In this document: positions 12,601-44,761 of the stretch, one piece after another | How positions within the stretch are numbered: position 1 is the first letter of the stretch | Layout: each line of letters opens with the position of its first letter | DNA from: Mycobacterium sp. | GTDB lineage: Bacteria > Actinomycetota > Actinomycetes > Mycobacteriales > Mycobacteriaceae | Reading direction: 5' to 3' | NCBI GenBank assembly: GCA_016197405.1 | Contig: JACPVR010000026.1 | Location: forward strand, 1-64,000 | Length of the DNA: 64,000 nucleotides | The notes under the pieces: model-generated | The model's input: the letters and a program-made list of their open reading frames with translations, nothing else | Database searches by the model: none | What the model was told of the DNA's origin: nothing | Position numbers and translations under genes: made by a program

Positions 12601-12699
12601 GTGACATCTGTGCCGGCTGGTCCCGACGGCCTGTGGACCGCCGTTCGGGATGTCGCCGGCCGATGCTGGGCCACAACATATTCGGATCGGCCGTGTTGA
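12601..12699 (+). CDS. 32-aa leader ORF or out-of-frame N-terminal part of YrbEA (VTSVPAGPDGLWTAVRDVAGRCWATTYSDRPC)
   Basis: GTG start with AGGAG 5 nt upstream (12591-12595); stop TGA overlaps the in-frame GTG (12693) of YrbEA. Confidence 0.45.
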   Translation: MTSVPAGPDGLWTAVRDVAGRCWATTYSDRPC

Positions 12700-13466
12700 T
12701 CTCCGCGCAGCCGGTGGTCAAGCCGGTGCGCGTCGTCGGCGAGTTCTTCGGATTCACACTCGATGTCCTGATCGGACTGTGCACCAACCCGTTGGCGTGG
12801 CGCGAATACCTGGCGCAGGCGTGGTTCGTCGCGCGGGTCTCACTACTACCTGCGGTGATGATGATCATCCCGTACGCGATCATCAACACCTTCATCTTCA
12901 ACATCCTGCTCAGCGAGTTCGGCGCTGCGGACTTCTCCGGTGCCGGAGCAGCCTTCTTCAATGTGAACCAGATCGGTCCACTCGTGACCGTTCTGGTGAC
13001 CGCCGGGGCCAGTGCGACCGCGATGTGCGCGGATCTGGGTGCGCGCACCATCAGGGAGGAACTCGACGCGCAGCGGGTGATGGGGATCGATCCCATTCAG
13101 GCGCTGGTCATCCCGCGCGTGCTCGCCGCGACCACCGTGTCAATGGCGCTGATGGGGGTCGTGGTCTTCGTCGGAATGGTCGCTTCCTTTTTCTTTTGTG
13201 TTTTCGCCCTGGATGTTTCGGCGGGTGTGTTCGTCTCGGGGATGACGGTGGTCACTGGTCTCGGCGATGTCGTGGTCTCGCTCGTCAAGGCATTTCTCTT
13301 CGGCCTGGCAGCCGGATTGATCGCCTGCTACAAGGGCGTTTCGGTAGGGGGTGGACCCGCCGGCGTCGGCAACGCCGTCAACGAGACAGTGGTGTTCTCG
13401 TTCATGGTGCTGTTCACCGTCAACATCATCGTGACCGCAGTCGGTGTGCAGTTCACCCTGAAGTGA
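12663..13466 (+). CDS. YrbEA-type MlaE/ABC permease of mce operon (start ATG 12663 or GTG 12693)
   Basis: FVARVSLLPAVMMIIPYAI..NILLSEFGAADFSGAGAAFF..TAMCADLGARTIREELDAQRVMGIDPIQALVIPRVLAAT..GGGPAGVGNAVNETVVFSF. Confidence 0.92.
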   Translation: MLGHNIFGSAVLISAQPVVKPVRVVGEFFGFTLDVLIGLCTNPLAWREYLAQAWFVARVSLLPAVMMIIPYAIINTFIFNILLSEFGAADFSGAGAAFFNVNQIGPLVTVLVTAGASATAMCADLGARTIREELDAQRVMGIDPIQALVIPRVLAATTVSMALMGVVVFVGMVASFFFCVFALDVSAGVFVSGMTVVTGLGDVVVSLVKAFLFGLAAGLIACYKGVSVGGGPAGVGNAVNETVVFSFMVLFTVNIIVTAVGVQFTLK

Positions 13467-13473
13467 GGCAGCC

Positions 13474-14340
13474 ATGACCCAGTCGATCTCGCGTGCGGTT
13501 CCCGCCCGCCACCATCAGAGGTTTTCACGTGTGAAGGCCAAAGCGGTGGGCGAATGGGACCGCATCGGCGCGCAGACGTACTTCTACTTCCGGACACTGG
13601 CCTCGATACCCGGTGCGGTCATCTACTACCGCCCGGAATTGCTGCGGTTGATCGCTCAGATGGGTTTGGGTTCCGGGGCGCTCGCGGCTGTCGGCGGGAC
13701 GATCGTGATCGTCGGTTTCATGACGATGACCACCGGTGCCGTGGTCGCCGCGCAGGGCTTCACCCAATTCCAGTCCGTCGGCGTGGACGCGTTCACCGGC
13801 TTCGCGTCGGCGTTCTTCATCCCTCGGCTCATCGTTCCGGGCACGGCACAGGTCACGCTCACGGCCACCATCGGAGCGGGCGCCACAGCGCAGATGGGAG
13901 CGATGCGGATCAACGAGGAAGTCGACGCGCTGGAGGTCATCGGCATCCGAAGCGTCACCTACCTCGCAGCCACGCGCGTCCTGGCCGGCACGATCGTGGT
14001 CATTCCGTTGTACGCGGTGGCGCTCATGACCGGGTTCCTCGCCGCACGTTTCGGGACGACGGCGATCTACGGCCAGGCCTCAGGTGTCTACGACCACTAC
14101 TTCGACACCTTTCTCAACACCAGCGATCTCGTCTGGTCGTTCCTGCAGACGATCGTGATGATCGTCGTGGTGATGCTGGTCTGCACCTACTACGGATACA
14201 CCGCAAGTGGCGGCCCGGCTGGCGTCGGCGAGGCCGTCGGCCGCGCGGTACGTGCATCCATGGTGATCGGCGGGATAGTCCTGATGGCCGTCACCCTGGC
14301 CGTGTACGGCACCTCCGGCAACTTCCACCTGGCGGGTTAG
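13474..14340 (+). CDS. YrbEB-type MlaE/ABC permease of mce operon
   Basis: TATIGAGATAQMGAMRINEEVDALEVIGIRSVTYLAATRVLAGTIVVIPLY..YYGYTASGGPAGVGEAVGRAVRASMV. Confidence 0.94.
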   Translation: MTQSISRAVPARHHQRFSRVKAKAVGEWDRIGAQTYFYFRTLASIPGAVIYYRPELLRLIAQMGLGSGALAAVGGTIVIVGFMTMTTGAVVAAQGFTQFQSVGVDAFTGFASAFFIPRLIVPGTAQVTLTATIGAGATAQMGAMRINEEVDALEVIGIRSVTYLAATRVLAGTIVVIPLYAVALMTGFLAARFGTTAIYGQASGVYDHYFDTFLNTSDLVWSFLQTIVMIVVVMLVCTYYGYTASGGPAGVGEAVGRAVRASMVIGGIVLMAVTLAVYGTSGNFHLAG

Positions 14341-14343
14341 CGG

Positions 14344-15612
14344 ATGGCCGGCAGAGCGGGAGAGCAACGGCTCGCGAACAGGTGGTGGACGCTGATCCTG
14401 CTCGCCACGGTCGGTGTCCTGGGTTTCGTGACCACGACCGCCTTTCTGGGGACCTTCCGGTCCTCGGTCCCTGTCACCGTCACCTCGGACCGGTCGGGAT
14501 TGGTTCTGGAGACCGGCGCCAAGGTGAAGTTGCGTGGGGTAGATGTCGGCCGCGTGGCCGCGATCGGCCACGCCGATCGGGCAGCGCGCCTCACGCTCGA
14601 GATCGATACCGACCAGATTCGCCACATCCCCGCCAACGTCGAGCCGAGGATCAACGTGACCACGATCTTCGGCGCGAAGTTCGTCGATCTGGTGTATCCG
14701 CGGTTCCCCAGTGCCCAGCGCCTGGCTGCCGGTGCGGTGCTTCGGTCGACCAACGTCACGACCGAGGTCAACACGGTCTTCGAGAACATCGTCGACCTGC
14801 TCAAGATGGTCGATCCGTTGAAGCTCAACGCCGTGCTGTCCGCGGTCGCCGAAGCGGTCCGTGGACGTGGCGAGCAGATCGGCGCGGCGACCACGGACCT
14901 CAACGAGGTCCTGACGGCACTCAACGCACGCAATGACACAATCCACCAGGATCTGCTGTCGCTGAAGAACTTCGGCGATACCTACGGCGCCGCGGCCAAC
15001 GACATCGTGGCCATCCTGAACTCCGCGGCCACCACCAGCACCACTATCACCGAGCATGAGAAATCACTGGATGGACTGCTGCTCAGTGCAATCGGCATCA
15101 GCGACGCCGGAACGAATCTACTCGCCGCGAGCAAGGACAATCTCGTCACCGCGGTGAACACTTTGGCGCCGACGGTGAATCTGTTGAACATGTACAGCCC
15201 CGAATACGCGTGCACGCTGCAGGGCGCCAAGTGGATCGTCGACAATTCGGGCCCGGTCTTCGGCGGCGACGGCCGCAGCTTCGTCGTCGACGTGGCGCTG
15301 CTACCGGGCAACGACCCCTACGTCTACCCCGACAACCTGCCGGTCGTCGCCGCAAAGGGGGGCCCCGGCGGCCTGCCGTCATGCGGGTCGTTGCCCGATG
15401 CGACGAAGAACTTCCCCGTGCGTCAGCTCGTCACGAACACCGGCTGGGGAACCGGACTCGATATCCGGCCCAACCCCGGAATCGGGCACCCCTGCTATGC
15501 CGACTACCTGCCGGCCACCCGGGCGATCCCGCAGCCGCCGAGCATCCGCCAATGCCTACCGGGGCCGGCGCCAGGCCCCGAGCCGACCGGCGGCGGACAG
15601 GGCACACCATGA
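14344..15612 (+). CDS. MCE family protein (MceA position)
   Basis: N-terminal TM, MlaD/MCE domain (GLVLETGAKVKLRGVDVGRVAAI..ATIFGAKFVDL), first mce gene after yrbEB. Confidence 0.92.
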   Translation: MAGRAGEQRLANRWWTLILLATVGVLGFVTTTAFLGTFRSSVPVTVTSDRSGLVLETGAKVKLRGVDVGRVAAIGHADRAARLTLEIDTDQIRHIPANVEPRINVTTIFGAKFVDLVYPRFPSAQRLAAGAVLRSTNVTTEVNTVFENIVDLLKMVDPLKLNAVLSAVAEAVRGRGEQIGAATTDLNEVLTALNARNDTIHQDLLSLKNFGDTYGAAANDIVAILNSAATTSTTITEHEKSLDGLLLSAIGISDAGTNLLAASKDNLVTAVNTLAPTVNLLNMYSPEYACTLQGAKWIVDNSGPVFGGDGRSFVVDVALLPGNDPYVYPDNLPVVAAKGGPGGLPSCGSLPDATKNFPVRQLVTNTGWGTGLDIRPNPGIGHPCYADYLPATRAIPQPPSIRQCLPGPAPGPEPTGGGQGTP

Positions 15613-15643
15613 CACCGTTCGGCCCAACAGACCCAGGAGCGAA

Positions 15644-16678
15644 GTGGTGACCGATAACTCCAGAGGGCTGATCTGGCGTCTCGCACTCTTCGGGATCGTC
15701 TGCGCGCTGGCACTATTCGCCACGGTGGTGGTCTTCGGGCAGTTCCGCTTCAGCGGCGACCGGAAAACCTACGGGGCGATCTTCAGCAATGTCTCCGGGT
15801 TGCGAACCGGCAACCTGGTCCGAGCCGCAGGGGTCGAGGTCGGCAAAGTGACCGACATCGTGGTCAACCCCGATGCCACCGTCCACGTCGAGTTCAACGC
15901 CGACCCGTCGGCAGTTCTGACCGAGGCCACCAGGGCCGAGATTCGCTACGACGACCTCATCGGCGGGCGCTACCTGGCACTCGTCGACGTCGCCGCCGGA
16001 CCTCGCATCCTGGCCGCGGGACAGACCATTCCCGTCGAGCGAACCCAACCGGCGCTGGATCTGGACTCGGTGACCGCGGGCTTCCGGCCGCTGTTCCGCG
16101 CGTTGGACCCGCAGCAGGTCAACGACCTCAGCGGCCAATTGATGCACGCTTTGCAAGGCGAAGGCCCCACCATCGCCTCGTTCCTCCAACAAGCCGCGGC
16201 GGTGACCAGCACCTTGGCCGACCGCGATCAGCTGATCGGACAGACTGTCGACAATCTCAACGTGGTGCTCGCGACGCTGGGCCCGCAGACCGGACAATTG
16301 GACAAGGCGGTGACGTCACTGTCGGACCTGATTCACGGTCTGGCGCAACGTAAGACCGACATCGCCAACGCCGTCGCGTACACCGATGCGGCAACGGCCT
16401 CGATCGCCGACCTGCTCGGGCAATCCCGGCAGCCGATTGCGCGGGTGGTTAGCGAGACCGATCGCCTGGCGGGCACGGCGCTCGACGACCGCGACTACCT
16501 CGACGAGATCCTCGACACCCTGCCCGACAAGTATCAGATGCTCAACCGCCAAGGCATCTACGGCGACTACTTCAGCTTCTACTTCTGTGATGTCGTGCTC
16601 AAGCTCAACGGCAAAGGAGGTCAACCGGTGTTCGTCAAGGTCGCCGGCCAGACCACGGGTCGGTGTGCGCCACGATGA
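15644..16678 (+). CDS. MCE family protein (MceB position)
   Basis: YGAIFSNVSGLRTGNLVRAAGVEVGKVTDIVVNPDATVHVEF..RYDDLIGGRYLALVD; GTG start within larger 15398..16678 ORF, CAGGAGC upstream. Confidence 0.92.
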   Translation: MVTDNSRGLIWRLALFGIVCALALFATVVVFGQFRFSGDRKTYGAIFSNVSGLRTGNLVRAAGVEVGKVTDIVVNPDATVHVEFNADPSAVLTEATRAEIRYDDLIGGRYLALVDVAAGPRILAAGQTIPVERTQPALDLDSVTAGFRPLFRALDPQQVNDLSGQLMHALQGEGPTIASFLQQAAAVTSTLADRDQLIGQTVDNLNVVLATLGPQTGQLDKAVTSLSDLIHGLAQRKTDIANAVAYTDAATASIADLLGQSRQPIARVVSETDRLAGTALDDRDYLDEILDTLPDKYQMLNRQGIYGDYFSFYFCDVVLKLNGKGGQPVFVKVAGQTTGRCAPR

Positions 16679-17997
16679 GGATGAACCGATCCTTCTCCCA
16701 ACGCAATCCGCTCGTGCTCGGCGCGGCGGGCATCACCATCGTGGCCCTCGTCGTGGCTGGTGCCCTCGGCAATCGCTACCTGCCGTTCGTGAACCAGGCC
16801 AAGAGCTATACGGCATATTTCACCGATGCAGGCGGTCTGTTCACCGGAGCGATCGTGCAGGTCTCGGGATACCCGGTGGGCAAGGTCTCCGATATCACCC
16901 TGGAAGACGCCGGTGTGCTCGTCACGTTCGACGTCGCAAAGGACATCCATCTCGGCCAGGACACCGAGGCGGCGATCAGGACGAAGGGCCTGCTGGGAAC
17001 CAAGGAACTCGACGTCACCCCGCGCGGCGCGGGCCAACTGGCCGGCGCCATCCCGATGGACCGCACCACCTCGCCGTACCAACTTCCCGATGCCCTCGGC
17101 GATCTGGCGACCACGATCAACGGGGTCGACACCGACATGGTGTCGGATTCCCTTGCCACGCTGGCACAGACGTTCGCAGACACACCGCCGCACCTGAAGA
17201 ATGCGGTGCAGGGGGTTTCCCGGTTCGCCGAGACCCTGAGTACGCGCGACGCGCAATTGCGCACACTGCTCGACGACGCGGCGAAGGCCACCGGCGTGCT
17301 GGCCAACCGCACCGACCAGATCGTCGGGTTGGTGCGTGACACCAATGCGCTTCTGGCCCAATTGCAGACGCAGAGCAATGCGCTGGATCAGATCGCGTCG
17401 AACATCTCGGCGGTATCCGGTCAACTCAAGGCGTTCATCGCCGAGAATCGCCGAGAGCTCAAACCGGCTCTGGACAAGCTCAATGGTGTGTTGGCCATCG
17501 TCGACAATCGCAAGGAGCGAATCCAGCAGGCGGTCAAGGGCCTCAACACCTACGCGATGGCCGTGGGCGAGACCGTCTCCTCGGGCCCGTTCTTCAAGGC
17601 TTACGTGTCGAATCTGTTGCCCGGCCAGTTCATTCAGCCGTTCGTCGATGCGGCATTCTCCGATCTGGGAACAGACCCCGCCACCAAGCTGCCCTCCCAG
17701 CTCAATGACCCGCAGACCGGTCAGCCGGGCACACCAGCCCTGCCCGTGCCCTATCCGCGGACCGGTCAAGGGGGAGACCCGCGGCTCAGTGTGCCCGACG
17801 CCATCACCGGGAACCTCGATCCCGCGCTGCCTGCCCAGTCCCCGGGTCGCTACCCGTACCGACCCGAGCCGTCGGCGCCTGCTCCCGGCGGGCCGCCGCC
17901 GGGACCCCCTGCTCCACCGCCGGCCGGCATGGAGTCCGCGCCCGAGCCGACACCGGCACCTGTCTACCTGCCCGCACCCGGCGAGGAGTCGCCATGA
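16675..17997 (+). CDS. MCE family protein (MceC position), Pro-rich C-terminus
   Basis: SYTAYFTDAGGLFTGAIVQVSGYPVGKVSDITLED..RTKGLLGTKELDVTP; ATGA overlap with preceding gene. Confidence 0.92.
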   Translation: MRMNRSFSQRNPLVLGAAGITIVALVVAGALGNRYLPFVNQAKSYTAYFTDAGGLFTGAIVQVSGYPVGKVSDITLEDAGVLVTFDVAKDIHLGQDTEAAIRTKGLLGTKELDVTPRGAGQLAGAIPMDRTTSPYQLPDALGDLATTINGVDTDMVSDSLATLAQTFADTPPHLKNAVQGVSRFAETLSTRDAQLRTLLDDAAKATGVLANRTDQIVGLVRDTNALLAQLQTQSNALDQIASNISAVSGQLKAFIAENRRELKPALDKLNGVLAIVDNRKERIQQAVKGLNTYAMAVGETVSSGPFFKAYVSNLLPGQFIQPFVDAAFSDLGTDPATKLPSQLNDPQTGQPGTPALPVPYPRTGQGGDPRLSVPDAITGNLDPALPAQSPGRYPYRPEPSAPAPGGPPPGPPAPPPAGMESAPEPTPAPVYLPAPGEESP

Positions 17998-19295
17998 GAA
18001 GGCCGGCACCGAATCCTCGATCGCTGCTCGCCGCCGTTTTGACCGTGACGCTCGTTGCCGGGTGTCTGGTCGCAATGAGATTCCATGACAACGTCGGCAA
18101 GGTCGTGGTCGTCGGATATTTCGACAATAGCACCGGATTGTTTCCCGGAGACGATGTGCGCATCAGGGGCGTCAACGTCGGCAAGGTCGAGTCCATCGAA
18201 CCGCAACCGTTGCGCACGAAGATCACCTTCTGGTTCGACCGCAGATACAAGGTGCCCGCCGATGCGACGGCGGTGATCCTTTCGCCGCAGTTGGTCACCG
18301 GCCGGGCGATACAGCTGACCCCGCCGTTCACCGGTGGCCCTGTGATGGCCGACGGGGCCGTCATCGGTCCGGACCGCACCGCGGTACCGGTGGAGTGGGA
18401 CGAGGTGCGCGCGCAATTGGAGCGTCTGACCGACATGCTCCAACCCAGCAAACCGGGGGGAGTGAGCTCGCTGGGGGCGATCATCAACACGGCCGCAGAC
18501 AACCTGAGGGGCCAGGGCACCTCGATCCGAGACACCATCATGAAGCTGTCGACGACGATGTCGACGCTCGACGACCACAGCGACGACGTGTTCGGCACCA
18601 TCAAGAGTTTGTCGCTGCTGGTCTCGGCATTGCGCGACAGCAGCGATCTGCTGGTGCAGCTCAACGGCAATCTGTCCTCGGTGTCCGGGCTGCTCGCCGA
18701 CGACCCCCACGAGGTCGGCCGGGCCGTCGAGGACCTCAACGGCGTCGTCGACGACGTGCGGACCTTCGTCGCCGAGAACCGCGAGCCCATCGGCATCGCC
18801 TCGGACAAGCTGGCCTCGATCAGCAATGCGGTGACCGCCAGTCTCGACGATCTCAAACAAACACTGCATCTGGCCCCCACGGTGATGGCGAACTTCAACA
18901 ACATCTACGAGCCCGCCAACGGTTCGCTGACCGGCGAACTCATGATCAACAACTTCGCCAACCCGCTGTCGTTCGTCTGCGGTGCCATCCAGGCGGCCTC
19001 CCGACTGGGTTCGGAGGAGGCAGCCAAGCTGTGTGTGCAATACCTGGCTCCCATCGTGAAGAACCGGCAGTACAACTTCCTGCCTTTCGGCGAGAACCTC
19101 GTCGTCGGCGCCCAGGCCCGTCCCAACGAGGTGACCTACAGCGAGGACTGGCTCAGGCCCGACTCGGTCCCGCCGGCTCCGGCCGGCACCGCCGAGCCGC
19201 CGTCACCCGCGGAGGCGCCGGGCCCGATTCCGGTATCCACCGATCCGGGCGCCGGACTGTCCGGCCTGATGTCGCCGCAGGGAGGTGGCTCATGA
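17994..19295 (+). CDS. MCE family protein (MceD position)
   Basis: VVVVGYFDNSTGLFPGDDVRIRGVNVGKVESIEPQP..LSPQLVTGRAIQLTP; ATGA overlap. Confidence 0.92.
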   Translation: MRRPAPNPRSLLAAVLTVTLVAGCLVAMRFHDNVGKVVVVGYFDNSTGLFPGDDVRIRGVNVGKVESIEPQPLRTKITFWFDRRYKVPADATAVILSPQLVTGRAIQLTPPFTGGPVMADGAVIGPDRTAVPVEWDEVRAQLERLTDMLQPSKPGGVSSLGAIINTAADNLRGQGTSIRDTIMKLSTTMSTLDDHSDDVFGTIKSLSLLVSALRDSSDLLVQLNGNLSSVSGLLADDPHEVGRAVEDLNGVVDDVRTFVAENREPIGIASDKLASISNAVTASLDDLKQTLHLAPTVMANFNNIYEPANGSLTGELMINNFANPLSFVCGAIQAASRLGSEEAAKLCVQYLAPIVKNRQYNFLPFGENLVVGAQARPNEVTYSEDWLRPDSVPPAPAGTAEPPSPAEAPGPIPVSTDPGAGLSGLMSPQGGGS

Positions 19296-20449
19296 CGATC
19301 ACGCTGATCCGCCGAATCCGTTGCACGCTGGCGGGATTGGTCCTCATCGCAGTGGCGTCGGGCTGCGGCTGGCAGGGCGTCAATTCCCTGCCGCTGCCCG
19401 GCACCGCGGGTAATGGCCCGGGCTCATTCGTCGTCCAGGCGCAGATGGCCGATGTCAACAACATCACCGCCAACTCCCGTGTCCGGGTGGCCGACGTGAC
19501 GGTCGGCCACGTCACCAAGGTCGAACTGCAGGGTGGGCACGCATTGGTGACGATGCGGCTGGACGGCAATGTCGACCTGCCCGCCAACTCCACTGTCAAG
19601 ATCGGCACGACGACGATCTTCGGCTCGTTGCACATCGAGTTGGCGCCGCCGACAAGCGAAGCGCCGCAAGGAAAACTGCGGAACGGGTCGTTGATCGCAC
19701 TGTCCCGCTCGGGTGCCTACCCCAGCCCGGAGCAGACGCTGGCCGCTTTGTCGATGGTGCTCAACGGCGGCGGTCTGGCTCAAGCCGGTGACATCACCGA
19801 GGCGCTGAGCACTGCGTTCCGCGGACGTGAACACGATCTCCGAAATCTGCTCGAACAGCTCGACACCTTTGCCACGAACCTCAATGGTCAGAGCACCGAC
19901 ATCATCGCGGCCACCGACAGCCTCAACGCCCTGGTCGGCACGTTCGCGGCGCAACAACCGGTGCTCGACCGTGCGGTGAAGACCATTCCCGATGCGTTGG
20001 CGGTGCTCGACGGCGAACGGGACAATCTGGTGGAAGCCGCCGACAAGCTGGGCAAGTTCAGCGCCCTGACCACCGACACCATCAACCAGAGCAAGCAGAA
20101 CCTGGTCGCCGAACTGCGCGATGTCGGACCGGTGCTGGAGTCGTTGGCCGATGCCGGCCCCGCGCTGACTCGCTCGCTCGGGTTGTTGCCGACCTATCCG
20201 TTCCCCAACGCGACCATCGACAAGTGGCAGCGCGGCGATTCGGCCAACCTGACGGCCGTCATCGACCTGACGTTGAGCCGCATCGATGCCGGCCTGTTCA
20301 CCGGCACCCGGTGGGAATGCGACCTGACGAATCTGGAGCTGCAGTGGGGGCGCACGATCGGCCAATTCCCCAGCCCCTGCATGGCCGGTGGACCGAACAA
20401 CGGGGGTAATCCGCTGACCGCCCCGTATCGCTTCGACCAAGGGCGCTGA
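19292..20449 (+). CDS. MCE family lipoprotein (MceE position)
   Basis: Signal peptide with lipobox VASGC; FVVQAQMADVNNITANSRVRVADVTVGHVTKVEL; ATGA overlap with MceD. Confidence 0.92.
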   Translation: MTITLIRRIRCTLAGLVLIAVASGCGWQGVNSLPLPGTAGNGPGSFVVQAQMADVNNITANSRVRVADVTVGHVTKVELQGGHALVTMRLDGNVDLPANSTVKIGTTTIFGSLHIELAPPTSEAPQGKLRNGSLIALSRSGAYPSPEQTLAALSMVLNGGGLAQAGDITEALSTAFRGREHDLRNLLEQLDTFATNLNGQSTDIIAATDSLNALVGTFAAQQPVLDRAVKTIPDALAVLDGERDNLVEAADKLGKFSALTTDTINQSKQNLVAELRDVGPVLESLADAGPALTRSLGLLPTYPFPNATIDKWQRGDSANLTAVIDLTLSRIDAGLFTGTRWECDLTNLELQWGRTIGQFPSPCMAGGPNNGGNPLTAPYRFDQGR

Positions 20450-20451
20450 AC

Positions 20452-21906
20452 ATGCATTTGAATCGGCAGGCCCGCATTCAGCTGGCGATCTTCACGGTGC
20501 TGGCCATGGTGGCGTTGACGTTGATGACGGTGAACTACATGAAGTTGCCCGCCAAGCTTTTCGGGGTGGGGCATTACACCGTGACGATGGAGCTGCCCCG
20601 CACCGGTGGGCTCTACGTCAGCGGCAACGTCACCTACCGGGGCAGCACCGTCGGACGGGTGGAATCGGTTCACCTGACCGACAACGGGGTGGCGGCCGAA
20701 CTGTCGCTGCGGTCCGGCATCGACATCCCGCGAGACCTCAAGGCCGCCGTGCACAGCCAGTCGGCGATCGGCGAACAGTACGTCGACCTGCGGCCGACCG
20801 ACGCCACGGCACCGCCACTGCGCCAAGGCGATGTGATCGCACTGCAGGACACCTCGGTGCCGACCGACATCAATCGCGTACTCGATGCCGTCAAGACCGG
20901 CCTGGAGGCGGTGCCGCGCGACAACCTCAAGACCGTCATCGACGAGTCCTACACTGCCGTAGGCGGTTTGGGTCCACAGCTGTCCGCAATAGTCAAGGGC
21001 ACCGTCTATCTGTCGACCGAGGCTCGCAAGAATCTGGACCCGATTCTCACCCTCATCGACGATGCCGGACCGGTTCTCGATTCGCAGAACGACTCCGCCG
21101 AGGCCATCGCGAGCTGGGCGTCGCACCTGGCCACCGTCACCGGCGAACTGCAGACACACGACGCCGCCGTCGCCGGAGTCGTCGACAAGGGCGGGCCTGC
21201 CCTGGACGAGGCACGCCTGCTCGTCGACCGTCTGCAGCCCACCATCCCCGTTCTGATGGCCAATCTGGTCGGCGTCGGCCAGGTCGGGCTGACCTACCGA
21301 AGCGACCTCGAACAAATCCTGGTCATGCTGCCCCAGCTCGTCGCCATCGAGCAGGGGGCGTTGATCGCCAATGTCAACACCGATCAGGCATACAAAGGTG
21401 CCTACCTGAGCTTCAATCTGAATCTCAACATGCCGCCACCGTGCACCACCGGATACCTGCCGGCGCAGCAGACGCGCAGCGCCGCACTGCAGGACTACCC
21501 GGACCGGGCGCCCGGCGAGTATTACTGCCGGATACCGCAGGACTCCGAGTTCAACGTGCGTGGTGCGCGCAATACTCCATGCGAGACGCGTCCGGGCAAG
21601 CGCGCGGCCACGGTGCAGTTATGTGAGAGCGACGAGCCGTACGTGCCACTCAACGACGGGTTCAACTGGAAAGGCGATCCCAACGCGACGACCACCGGAC
21701 AAGCGGTACCCCAGCCCCCGCCCGGCCCGATCGGGGCGGATCTACCCGATCGCGCGGCCGTACCACCGCTGGCCGCCGCCTACTACGACCCGGCAACGGG
21801 CAGCTACACCGGGCCGGACGGGCGCCGGTATACCCAGTCTGATCTCGCCGGGACCGCGCTGAAAGACAAGAGCTGGCAGGCGATGTTGCTGCCGCCGGGA
21901 CACTGA
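20452..21906 (+). CDS. MCE family protein (MceF position)
   Basis: HYTVTMELPRTGGLYVSGNVTYRGSTVGRVESVHL..AIGEQYVDLRP; last gene of operon. Confidence 0.92.
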   Translation: MHLNRQARIQLAIFTVLAMVALTLMTVNYMKLPAKLFGVGHYTVTMELPRTGGLYVSGNVTYRGSTVGRVESVHLTDNGVAAELSLRSGIDIPRDLKAAVHSQSAIGEQYVDLRPTDATAPPLRQGDVIALQDTSVPTDINRVLDAVKTGLEAVPRDNLKTVIDESYTAVGGLGPQLSAIVKGTVYLSTEARKNLDPILTLIDDAGPVLDSQNDSAEAIASWASHLATVTGELQTHDAAVAGVVDKGGPALDEARLLVDRLQPTIPVLMANLVGVGQVGLTYRSDLEQILVMLPQLVAIEQGALIANVNTDQAYKGAYLSFNLNLNMPPPCTTGYLPAQQTRSAALQDYPDRAPGEYYCRIPQDSEFNVRGARNTPCETRPGKRAATVQLCESDEPYVPLNDGFNWKGDPNATTTGQAVPQPPPGPIGADLPDRAAVPPLAAAYYDPATGSYTGPDGRRYTQSDLAGTALKDKSWQAMLLPPGH

Positions 21907-24402: not shown

Positions 24403-25404
24403 GTGCTGGCACCGATCGCATGGCGTACCCCGCCTCGTCACTACGGTCCGTGGGAACAGTTCGCCTCACTGCTCACCGAAGGGCTGGTCGGGGCCGGCCA
24501 CGACGTCACATTGTTCGCCACTGCCGATTCGGTCACCTCGGCCCGGTTGCGGGCGACGGCACCACGGGGCTGGTCGGAAGACGCCGAGATCGACGCGAAG
24601 GTCGCCGAGTGTCTGCACATCGCCTCGGTATTCGAAAGCGCCGACGAATTCGACATCATTCACAACGGATTCGATTTTCTGCCACTGACATACAGCGCCT
24701 TGGTCGATACGCCGGTGGTCACCACCATCCACGGGTTCTCTTCGGAGCGCATCGTCCCGGTCTACCAGCGCTACGACGGTGACACGGCGTACGTGTCTAT
24801 CAGCGACGCCGACCGGCACCCCGCTCTGCACTACGCGGCCACCATCCATCACGGTATCGACTGCACGGCATTCGCCGTACATCCGAATCCCGGCGCGCAC
24901 CTGCTGTTCTTCGGCCGGATACATCCCGACAAGGGCACCGCGCACGCCATCGAGGTCGCCCGCCGGTGCGGGCGGCGCCTCGACATCGCCGGAATCATCC
25001 AGGACGAGAACTATTTTCGTGACTCCGTCGCACCGCATATCGACGGGCAGCAGGTGCGCTATCTCGGCCCCGTGGACGCCTCGGCGCGAGCCGAGGTGTT
25101 GGGAGGCGCACACGCCCTGTTGCACCTCATCGATTTCGACGAGCCGTTCGGCTACAGCGTCGCCGAGGCGATGGCCTGCGGTACACCCGTGATCGCCTAT
25201 GCCAGAGGCTCGATGGCAGAGCTGATCACACCCGGTGTCAGTGGCTACCTGGTCGGCGATATCGACTCGGCGGTCACCGCCGTGGCCGCGGCCGGCGAGC
25301 TCGACCGAGAGGTGATCGCCGAGCTCGCCGCCGAGAAGTTCGCCGTCGCACGAATGATCGACAGCTATGTGGACATCTACCGTGACCTGATGGCTCGGGT
25401 ATGA
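24403..25404 (+). CDS. Glycosyltransferase family 4 (GT4)
   Basis: LLFFGRIHPDKGTAHAIEVARRCGRRLDIAG..DEPFGYSVAEAMACGTPVIAYARGSMAELI; true start may be a few codons upstream (IRIAVLAPIAWR). Confidence 0.88.
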   Translation: MLAPIAWRTPPRHYGPWEQFASLLTEGLVGAGHDVTLFATADSVTSARLRATAPRGWSEDAEIDAKVAECLHIASVFESADEFDIIHNGFDFLPLTYSALVDTPVVTTIHGFSSERIVPVYQRYDGDTAYVSISDADRHPALHYAATIHHGIDCTAFAVHPNPGAHLLFFGRIHPDKGTAHAIEVARRCGRRLDIAGIIQDENYFRDSVAPHIDGQQVRYLGPVDASARAEVLGGAHALLHLIDFDEPFGYSVAEAMACGTPVIAYARGSMAELITPGVSGYLVGDIDSAVTAVAAAGELDREVIAELAAEKFAVARMIDSYVDIYRDLMARV

Positions 25405-28193: not shown

Positions 28194-28937
28194 ATGTCAA
28201 GCGAGTCACGCGCTCGCGGCTTTCCAGCTGCGAGCCCGCCTGATCTGCACGAGATCGTCATCGTCGTCCCCGCGCACAATGAGCGTGACCGATTGCCGGA
28301 TTGTCTGGACAGCATCGGCGTGGCCGCGCGGAGCGTGACGGTATCGGTGCGGGTCGTCGTCGTGCTGGATACCTGCACCGACGGGTCGGAGAGCGTGTTG
28401 CCGCCCTGGGTCTCCGCGATCCGGATGTCGGCACGCAATGTGGGCGCGGCCCGCGCCGCCGGATTCGTCAGCGCCGCACCGAATGCCGATCACCGGGTGT
28501 GGCTGGCCACCACCGATGCCGACTCCGTGGTCCCGACGACGTGGCTGGCGGACCAGATTCGCCATCATCGTGCCCGGATGCACGGGGTAGTCGGGACGGT
28601 GGCGGTGGATTGGCGAGAGCATGCCACGAGCACTCGGCGCCGCTACGAAGGTCTGTACCTCACGAGCGAAGCCGACCACCACGGGCATGTGCACGGCGCC
28701 AATTTGGGTGTGCGCGCCGATGCGTACTGGCGGGTGGGCGGCTTTCGGCCCCTGAGCGTCGGCGAGGACGTCGACCTGGTCGAGCGGCTCGTCAGTGCGC
28801 GGACGCCGTTGGTGTGGGATGCCGACAATGCCGTGCTGACCTCGGACCGGCGTGACTCCCGTGCGCGTGGGGGATTCGGCGACTACGTGCGTGCCCTGGC
28901 CGATGACGATATCGGCGCGTCCGCCGAGAGCGCCTGA
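28194..28937 (+). CDS. Glycosyltransferase family 2
   Basis: EIVIVVPAHNERDRLPDCLDSIGVAA..TDADSVVPTTWLADQIRHH..GANLGVRADAYWRVGGFRPLSVGEDVDLVERL. Confidence 0.88.
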   Translation: MSSESRARGFPAASPPDLHEIVIVVPAHNERDRLPDCLDSIGVAARSVTVSVRVVVVLDTCTDGSESVLPPWVSAIRMSARNVGAARAAGFVSAAPNADHRVWLATTDADSVVPTTWLADQIRHHRARMHGVVGTVAVDWREHATSTRRRYEGLYLTSEADHHGHVHGANLGVRADAYWRVGGFRPLSVGEDVDLVERLVSARTPLVWDADNAVLTSDRRDSRARGGFGDYVRALADDDIGASAESA

Positions 28938-30976: not shown

Positions 30977-31801
30977 CTACCGCAGACACGGCCGGCCGCC
31001 TGCGCCACGGGTTATCAGGCCTTGAGCCTCGAAGGCGTCGAGCCACCCCTGCATCGGCCACCACCCCCACCGACGGTGGAAGACAGCGGCGTTGGTGACG
31101 ATGTCATGCAGATGCTCGATCGGTGGATCCGAAACCGGATGGTATTGGTGGAAGGCGTGGGCGCCGCCGACCCAGCGCATGGTGATACCCAGTGCCGCCG
31201 CCGCCTGCGCGAAGTCGGTGTCCTCGGCTCCGTATCCGATGTACTGCGTGCAGAAGCCTCCGATCCGTAGCCAGGTCGGTGTGGTCACCGCGAAAGACAA
31301 CGACCAGAACAGCGAATACGCAGTGCTGAAAAGGATCTCGCTGTCAGCGGGCGCCGGGCGGGCCGGATGCGGGTCGATGTCATCGGGCAATGCCGCGAGA
31401 TCGTATCCGGCTGCCCCGGCGGGCGGCAGGTAGGTCACCGGTCCGCACAGCAGCGCCTGCCGGTGCTCGGCACGTTCGGCAGCGTTGCGGTAGGCGACGA
31501 CCATGTCGGGGGCTGGAATGCAGTCGACATCGAGGAAGATCAACAGTTCGGCTCCGCCCTCGATGGCAGCCTGAGCGCCGAGGTTGCGGGCCGCGGCCAT
31601 CGGCAGACCAGGTTCGGCGCAGTGGTAGGCGATGACATCGGTGCGCCGGTCGTGTGTTGGCACCGCACGGGCGACATCGTCATCATCGATCGCGACCACG
31701 ATATGCCGGTCGGGCGGAGTTGCGATCCGGGCCATTGCCGCCAACTGGTTGTGCAGGTGCGGTATTGGTCCACGTACGACGGTTACGACCGTGGTCCTCA
31801 T
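30977..31801 (-). CDS. Glycosyltransferase family 2 (galactosyltransferase-like C-terminus)
   Basis: MRTTVVTVVRGPIPHLHNQLAAMARI..LIFLDVDCIPAPDMVVAYRNA..FSLSFAVTTPTWLRIGGFCTQYIGYGAEDTDFAQAA. Confidence 0.87.
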   Translation of the reverse strand: MRTTVVTVVRGPIPHLHNQLAAMARIATPPDRHIVVAIDDDDVARAVPTHDRRTDVIAYHCAEPGLPMAAARNLGAQAAIEGGAELLIFLDVDCIPAPDMVVAYRNAAERAEHRQALLCGPVTYLPPAGAAGYDLAALPDDIDPHPARPAPADSEILFSTAYSLFWSLSFAVTTPTWLRIGGFCTQYIGYGAEDTDFAQAAAALGITMRWVGGAHAFHQYHPVSDPPIEHLHDIVTNAAVFHRRWGWWPMQGWLDAFEAQGLITRGAGGRPCLR

Positions 31802-32814
31802 GACGGCGACCTCTGCGCGTGGTGTGCGGCGACACGCGCTATTGCCGTCGCGGCGCGCGGCGCGGCACCCTTTGTGCGCCAACGGTTCCAGCCTTGGGCT
31901 CCGCACGCACGGGCTCGGTCGATGAGATCAGGCCACTCCGGTGGTTCGGGCCATCGGTGCCGGACGACAGCCAGCGCACCGCGCCGCAGAACGTCCGCCA
32001 TGGTGTGTTGCTCATCGAACGGACGCGGCGCGGCGACGATGATCGCGGGAACAGCGGCGGCGGCGATATCGGCAATCGAACCCTGACCGGCAGCCGAGAT
32101 CACGACGTCGGCTGCGCACAACGCGGGCCACGGATCCTCGACCCAGGTGCCGCCCGGCACGCCAAGCGACGACCAACGGAATTGCGGATGCGCCTGGGCG
32201 CACCGGGTTATCGATGTGGTGTCGATGCGAGCGCCGCCGGCACCGCTGAGCACCAGGACATCGGGGCGACCGTCCGATGCGGGCGGTGCTGCCGGGGCAG
32301 CTGGACGGCCGTCGAACCGGCTGATGCCTCCGGCATAGGTCGTCTTCGCGGAATGCTCGCGCAGCCAGCGGGGTTCGTACATTTCGCGTGGCCATGGCGC
32401 CACAATGTGTTCTGCCGTGCGGTACACCAGCTGATGTGGCGCGTCGATGCGCTCCCCGGGCATTGCCGCGACGACGATCGGCACGCCGAGCAATCGCACC
32501 AGCATCGCCACTTCCACGGACACGTCGATCACCATGACGTCGGGTCGCTCGACGGCCACCCATTCGGTGATGATCCGCATTCGCTCGCGTAATCCGCTGT
32601 CGTGCAGCGGAGCCCAATGCAGCACACCGTTGGCCGTGGGGTCCGCGCCGACGGGTTCCGAATCGTCGCGGGGTAGCCGAATCGTGCGGTATGCGTCGCT
32701 GTCGGCAATCGGCAACGACGACAACAGTGTCACCGGTTCACGCAGGTGTGCGCAGATGCTCAACGCTCTGTTGAGATGCCCGCGGCCGTGATGGTGTACG
32801 TAGTAACCGATCAT
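31798..32814 (-). CDS. MurG-like (GT1/GT28-type) glycosyltransferase
   Basis: MIGYYVHHHGRGHLNRALSICAHL; DVVISAAGQGSIADIAAAAVPAIIVAAPRPFDEQHTMADVL; ATGA overlap with downstream GT2. Confidence 0.83.
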   Translation of the reverse strand: MIGYYVHHHGRGHLNRALSICAHLREPVTLLSSLPIADSDAYRTIRLPRDDSEPVGADPTANGVLHWAPLHDSGLRERMRIITEWVAVERPDVMVIDVSVEVAMLVRLLGVPIVVAAMPGERIDAPHQLVYRTAEHIVAPWPREMYEPRWLREHSAKTTYAGGISRFDGRPAAPAAPPASDGRPDVLVLSGAGGARIDTTSITRCAQAHPQFRWSSLGVPGGTWVEDPWPALCAADVVISAAGQGSIADIAAAAVPAIIVAAPRPFDEQHTMADVLRRGALAVVRHRWPEPPEWPDLIDRARACGAQGWNRWRTKGAAPRAATAIARVAAHHAQRSPS

Positions 32815-33901
32815 CGTGGGTGATGTCCTGTTCTGCGATGACGTTGCGGTAGATGTCGAGGTAGCTCGCAACCATGGTGTGCGCGCAGCAGTTGGCAATG
32901 GCGCGGTCGCGCACCGCGGAACGCGAAAGTCCGACGACCTCGGTGACTGCTGCCGCCATTGCCGCCACATCCTGGTTCGGCACCACTCGACCGCTTCGGG
33001 CATCGACGACTTCGGGAATGCCTCCGCGTGCGAACGCGACCACCGGCGTGCCACACGCGAGTGCCTCGGCGACGACCAATCCGTATGGCTCGTCCCACAG
33101 CGGGGTCACCAGGGCTGCGGCCGAATGACCGACCAGGGCCGCCAACTGCCGCTGATCCAGGTGACCGGCGTACGTCGCCGCCTTACCGAGGCGGGGTCGG
33201 ATCGCATCCCGGAAGTAGTCCTGATTTCCGATCGGCCCGGCAAGGACCAGGTGCCGGCCGCATCGGCGAGCGGCTTCTATGGCGAAGTGAGGGCCCTTCT
33301 CCGGCGTGATGCGGCCGAACCACACCAACTCCTGGCCTCCAGGCCCCATGGGCCATCCCCGGAGATCGATACCGTTGGGCACCACCGATACCTCGCCGAT
33401 GACACGCGCCCAGGCGGCGCCGGTGTGACGGCTCACCGTGGCGAATGTTCCGCCACGCCCGCCGGAGGCGGCGATGGCGGCCTCCAGCCAGGTGAACGGG
33501 GGAGTGTGCAATGTGGTCACCATGGGCGTGCGTAGCCGTGCCGCGAGCGCTATCGGGATCTGGTGCAGGCTGTGGTTGTGGATGACGTCGAACCGGGCGG
33601 CACCGTGTTGGGCCAGTTCGGCCATCAAGGTGAGATAGGCGTGATGGTCCGACTCGATGACCGCCCCTGGTAACGGGAAACGTTGCGCCGCTGCGTTACT
33701 GCGTGTCAGGGCCTCGACGGCGAGACTCGGGTACTCCGGCCCCGGCTCTGAACCGGGCGCGGCGAACAGCGTCACCAGATGACCAAGCCGCGCCAAGGCG
33801 CGCGCAAGATGCCACACGTGCGCTTCGAGCCCGCCGGCGAACGGTTGACGGATCGGGAAGCGATTCGGGGCGATCAGTGCGATACGCAATGGCGCGGTCA
33901 T
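32738..33901 (-). CDS. Glycosyltransferase family 4
   Basis: IALIAPNRFPIRQPFAGGLEAHVWHLARAL; LVWFGRITPEKGPHFAIEAARR; EPYGLVVAEALACGTPVVAFARGGIPEVVD. Confidence 0.9.
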   Translation of the reverse strand: MTAPLRIALIAPNRFPIRQPFAGGLEAHVWHLARALARLGHLVTLFAAPGSEPGPEYPSLAVEALTRSNAAAQRFPLPGAVIESDHHAYLTLMAELAQHGAARFDVIHNHSLHQIPIALAARLRTPMVTTLHTPPFTWLEAAIAASGGRGGTFATVSRHTGAAWARVIGEVSVVPNGIDLRGWPMGPGGQELVWFGRITPEKGPHFAIEAARRCGRHLVLAGPIGNQDYFRDAIRPRLGKAATYAGHLDQRQLAALVGHSAAALVTPLWDEPYGLVVAEALACGTPVVAFARGGIPEVVDARSGRVVPNQDVAAMAAAVTEVVGLSRSAVRDRAIANCCAHTMVASYLDIYRNVIAEQDITHDDRLLRTPSRPRASQQSVEHLRTPA

Positions 33902-33921
33902 GGCCGGTGTCTGCCCGCCGA

Positions 33922-34059
33922 TCAGCCGGGCGGATCGTTGGCGATGTTCTCCGCCGCCTGTTTCTCACCCGTGGGGTGATCGGTGTCGCGCGGGTTTATC
34001 TTCGCATCAGTGCTCGACTTGTCCTGTGGGTCCACATCGGTGGGATGTTGGTCGGTCAT
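33922..34059 (-). CDS. 45-aa small hypothetical protein
   Basis: Reads MTDQHPTDVDPQDKSSTDAKINPRDTDHPTGEKQAAENIANDPPG*; 20 bp upstream of GT4; starts in ATGA overlap with preceding small ORF; below ORF-track size cutoff. Confidence 0.6.
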   Translation of the reverse strand: MTDQHPTDVDPQDKSSTDAKINPRDTDHPTGEKQAAENIANDPPG

Positions 34060-34181
34060 GACTGCAGTCCTGCTGTCGCGATCTCGACCTCGGCGGCCGC
34101 GTGAGCCACCAGAAAAGTACTGGCGCCAGCAGGATCAGGCTTGCCGACCACAGGCGCGTTGGAAGAATGTGACGACGTCAT
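34056..34181 (-). CDS. 41-aa small ORF
   Basis: MTSSHSSNAPVVGKPDPAGASTFLVAHAAAEVEIATAGLQS*; AAAGG 7 nt upstream of ATG; ATGA overlap with next small ORF. Confidence 0.4.
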   Translation of the reverse strand: MTSSHSSNAPVVGKPDPAGASTFLVAHAAAEVEIATAGLQS

Positions 34182-34251
34182 ATGACTGCCTTTATTTGCG
34201 GGTGATGCCGAGAATGCTCAACGGGGCTGGCGAAGCATCGGCTGTCCAGTT

Positions 34252-34276
34252 GTACCCGTAACGGGCCAGGTCAAAC
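34252..34276 (-). promoter_or_regulatory. SigF-like promoter GTTT-N15-GGGTAC
   Basis: Minus-strand CGTTT-GACCTGGCCCGTTAC-GGGTAC, about 70 nt upstream of the smORF-GT operon. Confidence 0.65.
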
Positions 34277-34390: not shown

Positions 34391-35302
34391 ATGCAATCGG
34401 ATCAATCAACCGACACATCAATCGCCGAACAGCGCATCGAGTTGTCCGGCGGTGCCATCGCCTACTCGGTCGCCGGCAGCGGTCCGGCGTTGCTGCTCAT
34501 CCACGGACTGGGTGGTACCCGCCAGACGTGGCGGCACCTGATCGGGCCACTGGCCCGTGACTACACGGTCATCTCGCCTGATCTGCCCGGGCACGGCCAG
34601 TCCGATCCGCCCGCGGGCGACTACTCACTGGGTGCCCATGCCTGCGCCTTGCGGGATCTCCTGCTGGCGGTGGGGCAGCATCGGGCGACTCTCGTCGGAC
34701 ACAGCCTCGGCGGTGGCGTCGCCTTGCAGACCGCCTATCAGTTTCCAGAGCGGACCGAACGCATTGTGTTGATCAGCAGCGGGGGCCTGGGTGCGGAGGT
34801 CACTCCGATACTGCGTGCGGCAACGCTGCCCGGAGCCGAAACCGTTGTCGCCGGGCTCAGTTCGATTCCGGCCGGCCTGACCCGGTCATTGTTCGGTGCA
34901 GTCCCGGCACTGGTCGGTCGGTCCGACGGGCGGGTACTTGCCGATGTGCTGCGGGGCCTTTCCGGCCAACAACAACGGCAGGCGTTCCTGCGAACAGCCC
35001 GCACCGTCATCGACTGGCGCGGTCAGACCGTCAGTGCCACGCGACAGCTGGGTCTGCTCAGCGACGTCCCGCTGCTGGTGGCTTGGGGAGCCGACGACAA
35101 GACGATTCCACCGCACCACCACCATGCACTGGCCCAGCGTGTTCCGCACGCGGTGACCGCGGAGATCGCCGGTGCGGGGCACTACCCGCATGAAACGGCA
35201 CCTGCGCCGGTACTGGCGGCCGTGCAGGCGTTTTTGGCCGGCTCCACGCCGTTTCAGTACAGCGACGCCCGCTGGCTGGAATTGTTGACCCAAGTCACCT
35301 GA
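34391..35302 (+). CDS. Alpha/beta hydrolase
   Basis: LLIHGLGGTRQTWRHLIGPLARDYTVISPDLPGHGQSD, VGHSLGGGVALQ, GAGHYPHETAP. Confidence 0.93.
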   Translation: MQSDQSTDTSIAEQRIELSGGAIAYSVAGSGPALLLIHGLGGTRQTWRHLIGPLARDYTVISPDLPGHGQSDPPAGDYSLGAHACALRDLLLAVGQHRATLVGHSLGGGVALQTAYQFPERTERIVLISSGGLGAEVTPILRAATLPGAETVVAGLSSIPAGLTRSLFGAVPALVGRSDGRVLADVLRGLSGQQQRQAFLRTARTVIDWRGQTVSATRQLGLLSDVPLLVAWGADDKTIPPHHHHALAQRVPHAVTAEIAGAGHYPHETAPAPVLAAVQAFLAGSTPFQYSDARWLELLTQVT

Positions 35303-35579: not shown

Positions 35580-36137
35580 ATGAGCGAGAACAACAAGGCT
35601 GACCAGGCCCGGAAGGGTTTGATCGACTCGGTCAAAGGCAAGGCGAAGGAAGTATTCGGCGCCGTCACCGGCAACGAGTCGTTGACGGCGGAGGGTCAGC
35701 TCGAGCAGACCCAGGCCCAGGAGCGTAAAGAGGCCAACAGCGTCGAAGCCGTCGCCGATGCCGAGGCGACCCAGGCCCGCAAGGAAGCCGCAGAAGCCAA
35801 GCTCGAAGGCGCCAGTGAGCGCGCGGTCGTGAATGCCAAGGCAGCGGTTGTCGAGAACGACGTGCGCACACAGCAGGCTGTACAGCATCAGGCCGTCGAG
35901 CGAGCCGGGCAACAGGATGCGGCCAAGGCGAAGGCGCAGGCCGAGGCCGACGCCCAGCGCGAGGTTGCGCAGGCGAAGGCCGAAGAGCAGGCAAAAGTGC
36001 AGGCCGCAGGAGCTGAACTGTCCGACGCCGTCGAGGAGCACCGCACTGCCGAGCAGGTCACTGCCGGTGCGCAGGCCGAGGCGGATCGCATCAGGGAGCG
36101 CGCCGACCGTTTGACCGCCGAAGCCGACCTGCCCTGA
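35580..36137 (+). CDS. CsbD-like N-terminal domain with long Ala/Glu/Gln coiled-coil extension
   Basis: KGLIDSVKGKAKEVFGAVTGNESLTAEGQLEQTQ (CsbD-like) followed by charged low-complexity helix. Confidence 0.72.
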   Translation: MSENNKADQARKGLIDSVKGKAKEVFGAVTGNESLTAEGQLEQTQAQERKEANSVEAVADAEATQARKEAAEAKLEGASERAVVNAKAAVVENDVRTQQAVQHQAVERAGQQDAAKAKAQAEADAQREVAQAKAEEQAKVQAAGAELSDAVEEHRTAEQVTAGAQAEADRIRERADRLTAEADLP

Positions 36138-36163: not shown

Positions 36164-36844
36164 ATGAGTGTCACATCAGTTCCATTCGCAGTTCTACGTT
36201 TCCAGTACCAGGTCGTGCGGCTTCCGCTGCAGCTGATCGAGGAGCGGCTTTTCGCTCGATTGGATTCCGAAGCCCCGGCCCGGTTGTTCTTCGAGCGTTC
36301 CCTCGGCAAGTTGGACGAGACTGTCGGCAGCGCTCTGGGTGATCAGCGGCTGCAGCGTCGCGGTGCTGCGCTCGCCGAGCGCAGCGATGCACTCGCTCGT
36401 GCGGCCAGGCTGGAGAATGCCGCATCGCAGAAGCGTGAACACGCCGAGGCGGACCTCGAAGCCAAACAGGACAAGGTGATCGAGGATATCGGTCAGGTCA
36501 GGCAATCCAAGGAAAGCGCAGTGCAGGACGCGAAAACCGCAGCGGCGGAACGCAAACGCGCAGCAGAGCAGGATGCCCAGAAGCGCACCGCCGAGGCGAA
36601 GAAGCGCGTCGACGATGCAGCCGCGCGACGCACGGATTCGGTGGAGTCGGCCAAGCGCCAGCAGCAGGAGAAGATCGAGGCTGCCGAGCGGCGGGCCAGT
36701 GCGGCGGCGAAAGCCAAACTCGATGATGCCAACGAGAAGCGCTCCGCAGCAGCGACGAAGCGGGCGCAGGCCGACCGGATCGAAGAACTCGCCGACGTGG
36801 AGAAGGCAAAGCGTCAGGCCGAGCGGGCACACAACAACGCGTGA
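36164..36844 (+). CDS. Mycobacterial Ala/Lys/Glu-rich coiled-coil protein (often auto-annotated 'IF2 family')
   Basis: MSVTSVPFAVLRFQYQVVRLPLQLIEERLFARLDSEAPARLFFERSLGKLDETVG followed by long charged helix. Confidence 0.75.
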   Translation: MSVTSVPFAVLRFQYQVVRLPLQLIEERLFARLDSEAPARLFFERSLGKLDETVGSALGDQRLQRRGAALAERSDALARAARLENAASQKREHAEADLEAKQDKVIEDIGQVRQSKESAVQDAKTAAAERKRAAEQDAQKRTAEAKKRVDDAAARRTDSVESAKRQQQEKIEAAERRASAAAKAKLDDANEKRSAAATKRAQADRIEELADVEKAKRQAERAHNNA

Positions 36845-43726: not shown

Positions 43727-43840
43727 GTCGAACTCCAATCCGTTGCGGCGAGCTGCCGCTGCGGGCGTACCCGACGGGCCGGAATCCAAACGCCAAGCGG
43801 GGGAGTTTGGTGCATCGGGTCACCGGGGTAAGCGCCGTGG

Positions 43841-44761
43841 ATGGTCAAAGCATTCGGATACCGCAGCAATGGCGGAGTGGAAGTCCAGGAATTTCTCGAT
43901 CTCGACATGCCCAGTCCGATGGCCGGTGAGTTGCTCGTCGAAGTCCGAACCGCCGGGGTCAACCCCGTCGATTGGAAGATCCGGTCGGGTCTGTACGGGC
44001 GCGACGGCGACAACAGCTTTCCCGCGGTCCTGGGGTCCGAGGTCTCCGGGGTGGTACGCGAGGTCGGCAAGGATGTCGAAGGGTTCGCGGTCAACGACGA
44101 GGTCTTCGGAAGTGTCGCCCCAGGGTCCGGCGGCTACGCGCAGTACACCCTGCTCACCGCGAACGCTGCAGCCGCCAAACCGCCGCAGGTCTCTTTCAAC
44201 GATGCCGCCACCCTGCCGGTGGCCGCCGCTACCGCTTATGACGGCGTCACCCAGCTCGGCCTGAAGGAGGGCCAAACCCTGCTGATCAACGGCATCAGCG
44301 GTGGGGTCGGGGTGGCCGCCGCGCAGCTGGCCCGCGATGTCAACATCAACGTCATCGGCACCGCGGCCGAGGACAAGCGCGAACTGGTGGAGTCCCTGGG
44401 CGCCACGTTGGTGCCCTACGGTGACGGGGTGGCCGACCGGATCCGGCAGTTGCTGCCCGACGGCGTCGACGCCATCTTCGATCTCGCCGGCGGTGACGGA
44501 CTGCGGGCCGTGGTCGAACTGCTCGCCGACCGTGACAAGCTCATCAGCGCCGGGGACCCGTCGGTGGCCGAGCTCGGCGGACACATGATCAAACGCGACC
44601 GCACCTATCGCGTCATGGAAATCGTGGCCCGACTGGTGGCGGACGGAAAGCTCGATCCGCACGTCGAGGACATCCGGCCCCTCGACGAGGCGGCTGAGGC
44701 GATCGCCGCGGTGGAAGCGGGACACGCCCGGGGCAAGGTCGTCATCGAAGTCAGTGCCTAG
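43841..44761 (+). CDS. NADP-dependent quinone-oxidoreductase-like protein
   Basis: AGVNPVDWKIRSGLYG..LGSEVSGVVREVGKDV..INGISGGVGVAAAQLARD; NADPH binding. Confidence 0.92.
   Translation: MVKAFGYRSNGGVEVQEFLDLDMPSPMAGELLVEVRTAGVNPVDWKIRSGLYGRDGDNSFPAVLGSEVSGVVREVGKDVEGFAVNDEVFGSVAPGSGGYAQYTLLTANAAAAKPPQVSFNDAATLPVAAATAYDGVTQLGLKEGQTLLINGISGGVGVAAAQLARDVNINVIGTAAEDKRELVESLGATLVPYGDGVADRIRQLLPDGVDAIFDLAGGDGLRAVVELLADRDKLISAGDPSVAELGGHMIKRDRTYRVMEIVARLVADGKLDPHVEDIRPLDEAAEAIAAVEAGHARGKVVIEVSA

Follow-up and report, generated by a model that had tools for sequence, protein, structure and literature searches.

In mycobacteria, SigF governs adaptation to stationary phase and oxidative stress. According to passages of PMC4694148, its regulon in Mycobacterium smegmatis includes the manganese catalase MSMEG_6213, KatA, a Dps-type protein, hydroxymethylglutathione-type dehydrogenases and a glycosyltransferase family 2 (GT2) gene, MSMEG_1097; MSMEG_6213 is SigF-dependent and carries the promoter sequence GTTT-N15-GGGTA. 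The locus described here resembles this SigF/SigB general stress regulon in its promoter consensus and in kinds of neighbour (catalase, Dps and hydroxymethylglutathione-type dehydrogenase). It differs in that MSMEG_1097 is the one glycosyltransferase shown in those passages, where no cassette of GT4, MurG-like and GT2 genes appears. A search of the open-access literature found no glycan branch of the SigF regulon, and nothing relevant on a SigF glycosyltransferase cassette or on a PIG-L/NodS combination.

The window (the whole 64-kb stretch of mycobacterial DNA that we analysed) contains a minus-strand locus in which a first-pass annotation had described a SigF box, two small open reading frames (smORF1 and smORF2) coupled through ATGA, and GT4, MurG-like and GT2 genes. 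All of these are present, and the locus and its neighbours are laid out as follows.

34253-34276, minus strand: SigF-type promoter box GTTT-N15-GGGTA (from sequence; similar boxes stand at Mn-catalase genes and stand-alone smORF2 homologues)
34056-34181, minus strand: smORF1, 41 codons/41 aa, most likely a manganese-catalase deletion scar (ordered end matches; no coding signal)
33922-34059, minus strand: smORF2, 45 aa, small hydrophilic protein (homologues; purifying selection)
32738-33901, minus strand: GT4 glycosyltransferase, cassette gene 2, P0003 (Pfam; 43-63% orthologues in syntenic cassettes)
31798-32814, minus strand: MurG-like GT-B glycosyltransferase with a GT28 C-terminal domain, cassette gene 3, P0004 (Pfam; model)
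30977-31801, minus strand: GT2/galactosyltransferase-like GT-A glycosyltransferase, cassette gene 4, P0005 (Pfam; DVD and ED motifs)
35580-36137, plus strand: CsbD-related gene (PF05532 just below cut-off; marks the intact Mn-catalase slot of relatives)
36215-36844, plus strand: gene without a Pfam family, a conserved neighbour of the CsbD-related gene
28194-28937, plus strand: GT2-family glycosyltransferase (relative in a sphingomonad operon; 32% to the Novosphingobium operon gene)

The two small frames overlap in ATGA, 20 nt separate smORF2 from the GT4 gene, the GT4 and MurG-like genes overlap by 77 nt, and the MurG-like and GT2 genes meet in another ATGA overlap; all three glycosyltransferase frames are open. 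The box fits the SigF consensus GTTT-N15-17-GGGTA with an N15 spacer (34276-34253). The window has four strict boxes where shuffles give 0.21; genome-wide there are 40, compared with 19 for the reversed pattern. Because this genomic excess is only about twofold, the box alone is weak evidence and leans on comparison. Two further strict boxes stand back to back at 43768-43830 (43791-43768 on the minus strand, 43805-43830 on the plus strand), directly before a gene at 43841. The window also carries a plus-strand gene run (12663-21906) whose gene starts, judged by eye, resemble an mce operon (YrbE-like, Mce-like).

The glycosyltransferase cassette and its link to SigF

Pfam assigns Glyco_transf_4 and Glycos_transf_1 domains to P0003, which has the EX7E motif of retaining GT4 enzymes as EPYGLVVAE; its nearest solved structures are 7fg9 and a tetrahydrobiopterin glucosyltransferase. 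P0005 has Glyco_tranf_2_2 and Glyco_transf_7C domains and resembles galactosyltransferase and chondroitin synthase domains. P0004 shares with MurG (GT28) a GT-B fold (model pLDDT 91.6; TM score of 0.69 to Escherichia coli MurG 1nlm, the best length-normalised fit among the matches listed) and a C-terminal domain above the Pfam cut-off (Glyco_tran_28_C, 26.1 bits; cut-off 22). We rejected its identification as MurG itself, as it scores far under the cut-off of the TIGR01133 equivalog (22.8 against 250.25 bits), and no peptidoglycan gene cluster surrounds it.

The cassette is conserved in Actinobacteria, where we compared 60 loci (Mycobacterium, Gordonia, Williamsia, Rhodococcus, Streptomyces, Nocardioides and others), and it has relatives in Proteobacteria. 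The order GT4, MurG-like, GT2 is kept in most of the 60 and in the window; in Burkholderia the plain triad stands alone. Most loci begin with a fourth, GT-B gene that overlaps the GT4 start. This leading glycosyltransferase (e.g., locus L027, 11055-12071, and its orthologues) matches no Pfam or NCBIfam family, and its orthologues are modelled with confidence as a GT-B enzyme, near GlgM and a methylmannose-polysaccharide mannosyltransferase. It is absent from the window and from a sister clade (M. hodleri, M. yunnanensis and three further strains), and our tree makes the window the sister of the clade without the first gene, with support of 1.0. The leading glycosyltransferase has been lost in the window's clade. 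Two records deserve separate mention. In Okibacterium fritillariae (L098, 6001-11061), a Mn catalase lies about 3 kb from MurG-like and GT2 genes. A record titled Kitasatospora arboriphila (L059) is syntenic with the Williamsia muralis loci L055 and L064, and may be mislabelled or contaminated.

At 12 of 21 mycobacterial loci, the first cassette gene is preceded by a strict SigF box at a distance of 113-250 nt, against a shuffled mean of 0.017. Five more boxes are near matches, the five sister loci sharing GTTA-N15-GGGTA, one base off GTTT; boxes about 110-250 nt upstream are found in most mycobacterial loci. Elsewhere, strict boxes precede the cassette at 7 of 22 loci (Gordonia, Williamsia and one doubtful record), against a shuffled mean of 0.013. 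Stress or SigF-type genes (SigF, STAS, ANTAR, catalase or similar) lie near the cassette at 30 of 51 loci compared with 3 of 40 random regions (P = 2 × 10−7, a generous value in which related species are counted and some reference families were picked after the loci had been seen). Strict boxes average 1.61 per 13 kb around the cassette and 0.07 in random regions. The first-pass annotation had proposed an uncharacterized glycosyltransferase pathway linked to SigF, and this comparison supports it: the promoter pattern and neighbourhoods support a SigF-linked pathway that is wider than the window. With a conserved SigF-boxed cassette near stress genes in many Actinobacteria, one of whose enzymes belongs to no Pfam family, a stress-induced sugar product becomes directly testable.

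The two small open reading frames

smORF1 has no match in Pfam or NCBIfam. We searched the 64-kb window, over which the E values below are calculated, with nhmmer DNA profiles built from the ends of 18 Mn-catalase genes, and the top hit of each fell within smORF1.

34107-34161, minus strand: 5' end of Mn-catalase genes (VVGKPDPAGAS against IVVDEPDPAAAN; E = 0.0021)
34073-34104, minus strand: 3' end of Mn-catalase genes (AAAEVEIAT against ATAEVEIAT; E = 0.0035)

The two matches are 3 nt apart, on the same strand and in their original order: where the catalase reads ...NEIVVDEPDPAAAN...ATAEVEIAT..., smORF1 reads NAPVVGKPDPAGAS...AAAEVEIAT. Each end is weak singly, since scores of 13-15 bits, including a few chance N-end matches, also arise in a 1.47-Mb DNA scan. 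As an ordered pair of N-end and C-end, smORF1 was the best in that scan, one true catalase excepted. The scan supersedes an earlier test with random protein segments, which was loose (11 of 20,000) and whose pool held Mn catalases. Against a scar, the opening residues of smORF1 are unlike those of catalase.

Gene order points the same way. A Mn catalase lies close to the CsbD-related gene in seven related loci (L126, L132, L208, L210, L215, L217 and L219), and SigF-type boxes stand upstream of 12 of the 18 intact mycobacterial Mn-catalase genes. No Mn catalase was found elsewhere in the window's genome. The gene past the slot in the window (34391-35302), however, differs from the gene that relatives have there. 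Given the ordered pair, the lack of another Mn catalase in the genome and the syntenic slot of relatives, smORF1 is most likely the deletion scar of a Mn-catalase gene, its two ends standing in order, in frame and on one strand. The locus thus shares with Mn catalases of PF05067 (e.g., MSMEG_6213) an upstream SigF-type box, a CsbD-related neighbour and both recognisable gene ends; it differs in lacking about 270 internal codons, the catalytic body among them. With some 18 + 11 codons of the catalase ends kept and no full ferritin-like catalytic domain, smORF1 is, by its content, a remnant and not a member of the Mn-catalase family. The box at 34276-34253 probably once served the Mn-catalase operon as its promoter. 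The coding signature of smORF1 is negative (-3.9), and for this reason the frame, although open, is probably not a gene. We rejected smORF1 as a real small protein: it has no homologue, it lacks a coding signal, and both of its halves match catalase ends.

smORF2 is of a different kind. Its coding signature is +10.7, and over its last 24 codons pS is 0.56 against a pN of 0.15. It has no Pfam hit, and its C terminus bears the family motif PRDTDHPTGxxQAxENxANxxP. When 298 genomes of the genus were searched with a profile, eight gave strong matches, the window's included. Of the two frames first annotated, smORF2 is conserved, in seven other genomes of the 298, and smORF1 has no homologue save catalase ends. 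Substitution pattern and homologues mark smORF2 as a genuine, rare family of small proteins on which purifying selection acts. In three genomes (G115, G171 and G292), a homologue lies directly behind a Mn catalase (PF05067); in G115 and G292 the catalase stop overlaps the homologue's start (ATGA/GTGA), as smORF1 does smORF2 in the window. Four homologues stand alone, each with a SigF-like box shortly upstream. At another locus (L130, 7073-8554), a SigF-boxed homologue and a copy, 80% identical, of the second GT4 gene of the window (24403-25404) are arranged divergently.

Proposed history of the locus

The reading that we favour, and consider fairly probable, is that of a remodelled SigF operon in which a catalase scar, smORF2 and the cassette now stand behind a former catalase promoter. 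The ancestral order would have been SigF promoter, manganese catalase, smORF2. The catalase would then have lost about 270 codons through an in-frame deletion, leaving smORF1. Separately, the cassette, which in this clade had already shed its first gene, would have arrived 20 bp downstream of smORF2 and lost its own SigF promoter, to be read from that of the former catalase. With a gap of only 20 nt between smORF2 and the GT4 gene, the cassette's own promoter is gone, and the promoter of the former catalase takes its position; SigF control appears to have been kept through the change. Under stress, we infer, SigF RNA polymerase would make a single transcript of the locus, from which smORF2 and the three enzymes would be translated, in part through coupling at the overlapping junctions. 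We found no genome with the intact intermediate of promoter, catalase, smORF2 and cassette. The nearest relatives through the CsbD-related gene (G398 and G289) have neither catalase nor smORF2 beside that gene and no close cassette, and so supply no intermediate. On the favoured reading, the window would document an operon from which the enzyme has gone while the promoter and the small gene persist, and which has come to carry other stress genes.

Three other readings were weighed. It is unlikely, if still worth serious attention, that smORF2 and the cassette are chance neighbours, with the SigF promoter driving smORF2 only and the glycosyltransferases otherwise transcribed or decaying leftovers. 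The frequency with which smORF2 homologues stand alone behind a SigF box would suit such an arrangement, as would the weaker codon signal in the MurG-like and GT2 genes and the prior loss of one cassette gene. However, the gap before the GT4 gene is just 20 nt, and no sigma-70-like site lies between smORF2 and GT4 on the coding strand. The three frames are open, are about 61-66% identical to the sister clade and retain the family-invariant residues. SigF boxes also precede the cassette in other species, with which SigF control in the window fits.

We give a rather low probability to the idea that smORF1 has become a leader peptide with a new function, the control of translation of smORF2, and that its catalase likeness reflects only origin or chance. 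smORF1 does keep a start codon, an AAGG before it and the ATGA overlap with smORF2, but it has no coding signature and no homologue on which selection could be tested.

The first-pass annotation had cast both small frames as dedicated small hydrophilic partners of the glycosyltransferases in one stress operon, a proposal that we consider very improbable despite the tight coupling, the common promoter and the reality of smORF2 as a coding gene, given that smORF1 looks like a catalase scar without other homologues, that smORF2 homologues lie behind Mn catalase or alone, and that no smORFs were found upstream of orthologous cassettes. The adjacency that this proposal predicted elsewhere is also missing: of four genomes seen to have both smORF2 and a close cassette GT4 (at least 50% identical), only the window's has them adjoining, and in G107, G137 and G292 they are on separate contigs or over 1.4 Mb distant from each other. 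With the linkage seen only in the window, smORF2 was rejected as a glycosyltransferase partner.

A sphingomonad operon and the possible product

Returning to the remodelled operon, the three enzymes would add sugars in succession to a cytoplasmic acceptor, and the result would be a short glycoside or the head group of a glycolipid. Beside the window's glycosyltransferases there is no gene for export or for a polymerase, which points to a short cytoplasmic glycan.

An operon that carries such enzymes lies on Sphingobium and Novosphingobium plasmids (L233, 2725-11211; L225, 3452-12223), where a heme catalase stands beside genes in the order GT4, GT2, MurG-like, acyl-CoA dehydrogenase, PIG-L, NodS and GT2. 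It resembles the window in its orthologues of all three glycosyltransferases (38-47% in Novosphingobium), with the heme catalase adjoining. Unlike the window, it unites seven genes as one operon, whereas the modifying genes of the window's genome are on another contig. By analogy, the sphingomonad operon suggests a deacetylated, N-methylated oligosaccharide as product.

The separate contig, C6 (L230, 9020-13279), carries acyl-CoA-dehydrogenase-like, PIG-L deacetylase and NodS-like methyltransferase genes; a short distance upstream of them is a SigF-like box, GGTT-N16-GGGTA. This locus may modify the product of the window's enzymes, and we hypothesize that the cassette and the contig C6 module act in one pathway. 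A broader proposal, which we put forward only tentatively, is that the cassette and the PIG-L/NodS/acyl-CoA-dehydrogenase-like module form a general-stress pathway common to Actinobacteria and sphingomonads, making a novel deacetylated, N-methylated oligosaccharide or glycolipid protectant, and that in the window SigF control survived the exchange of one SigF promoter for another when the catalase was lost. Contig C6 also holds a divergent pair of hemerythrin-type and GT2 genes behind another box.
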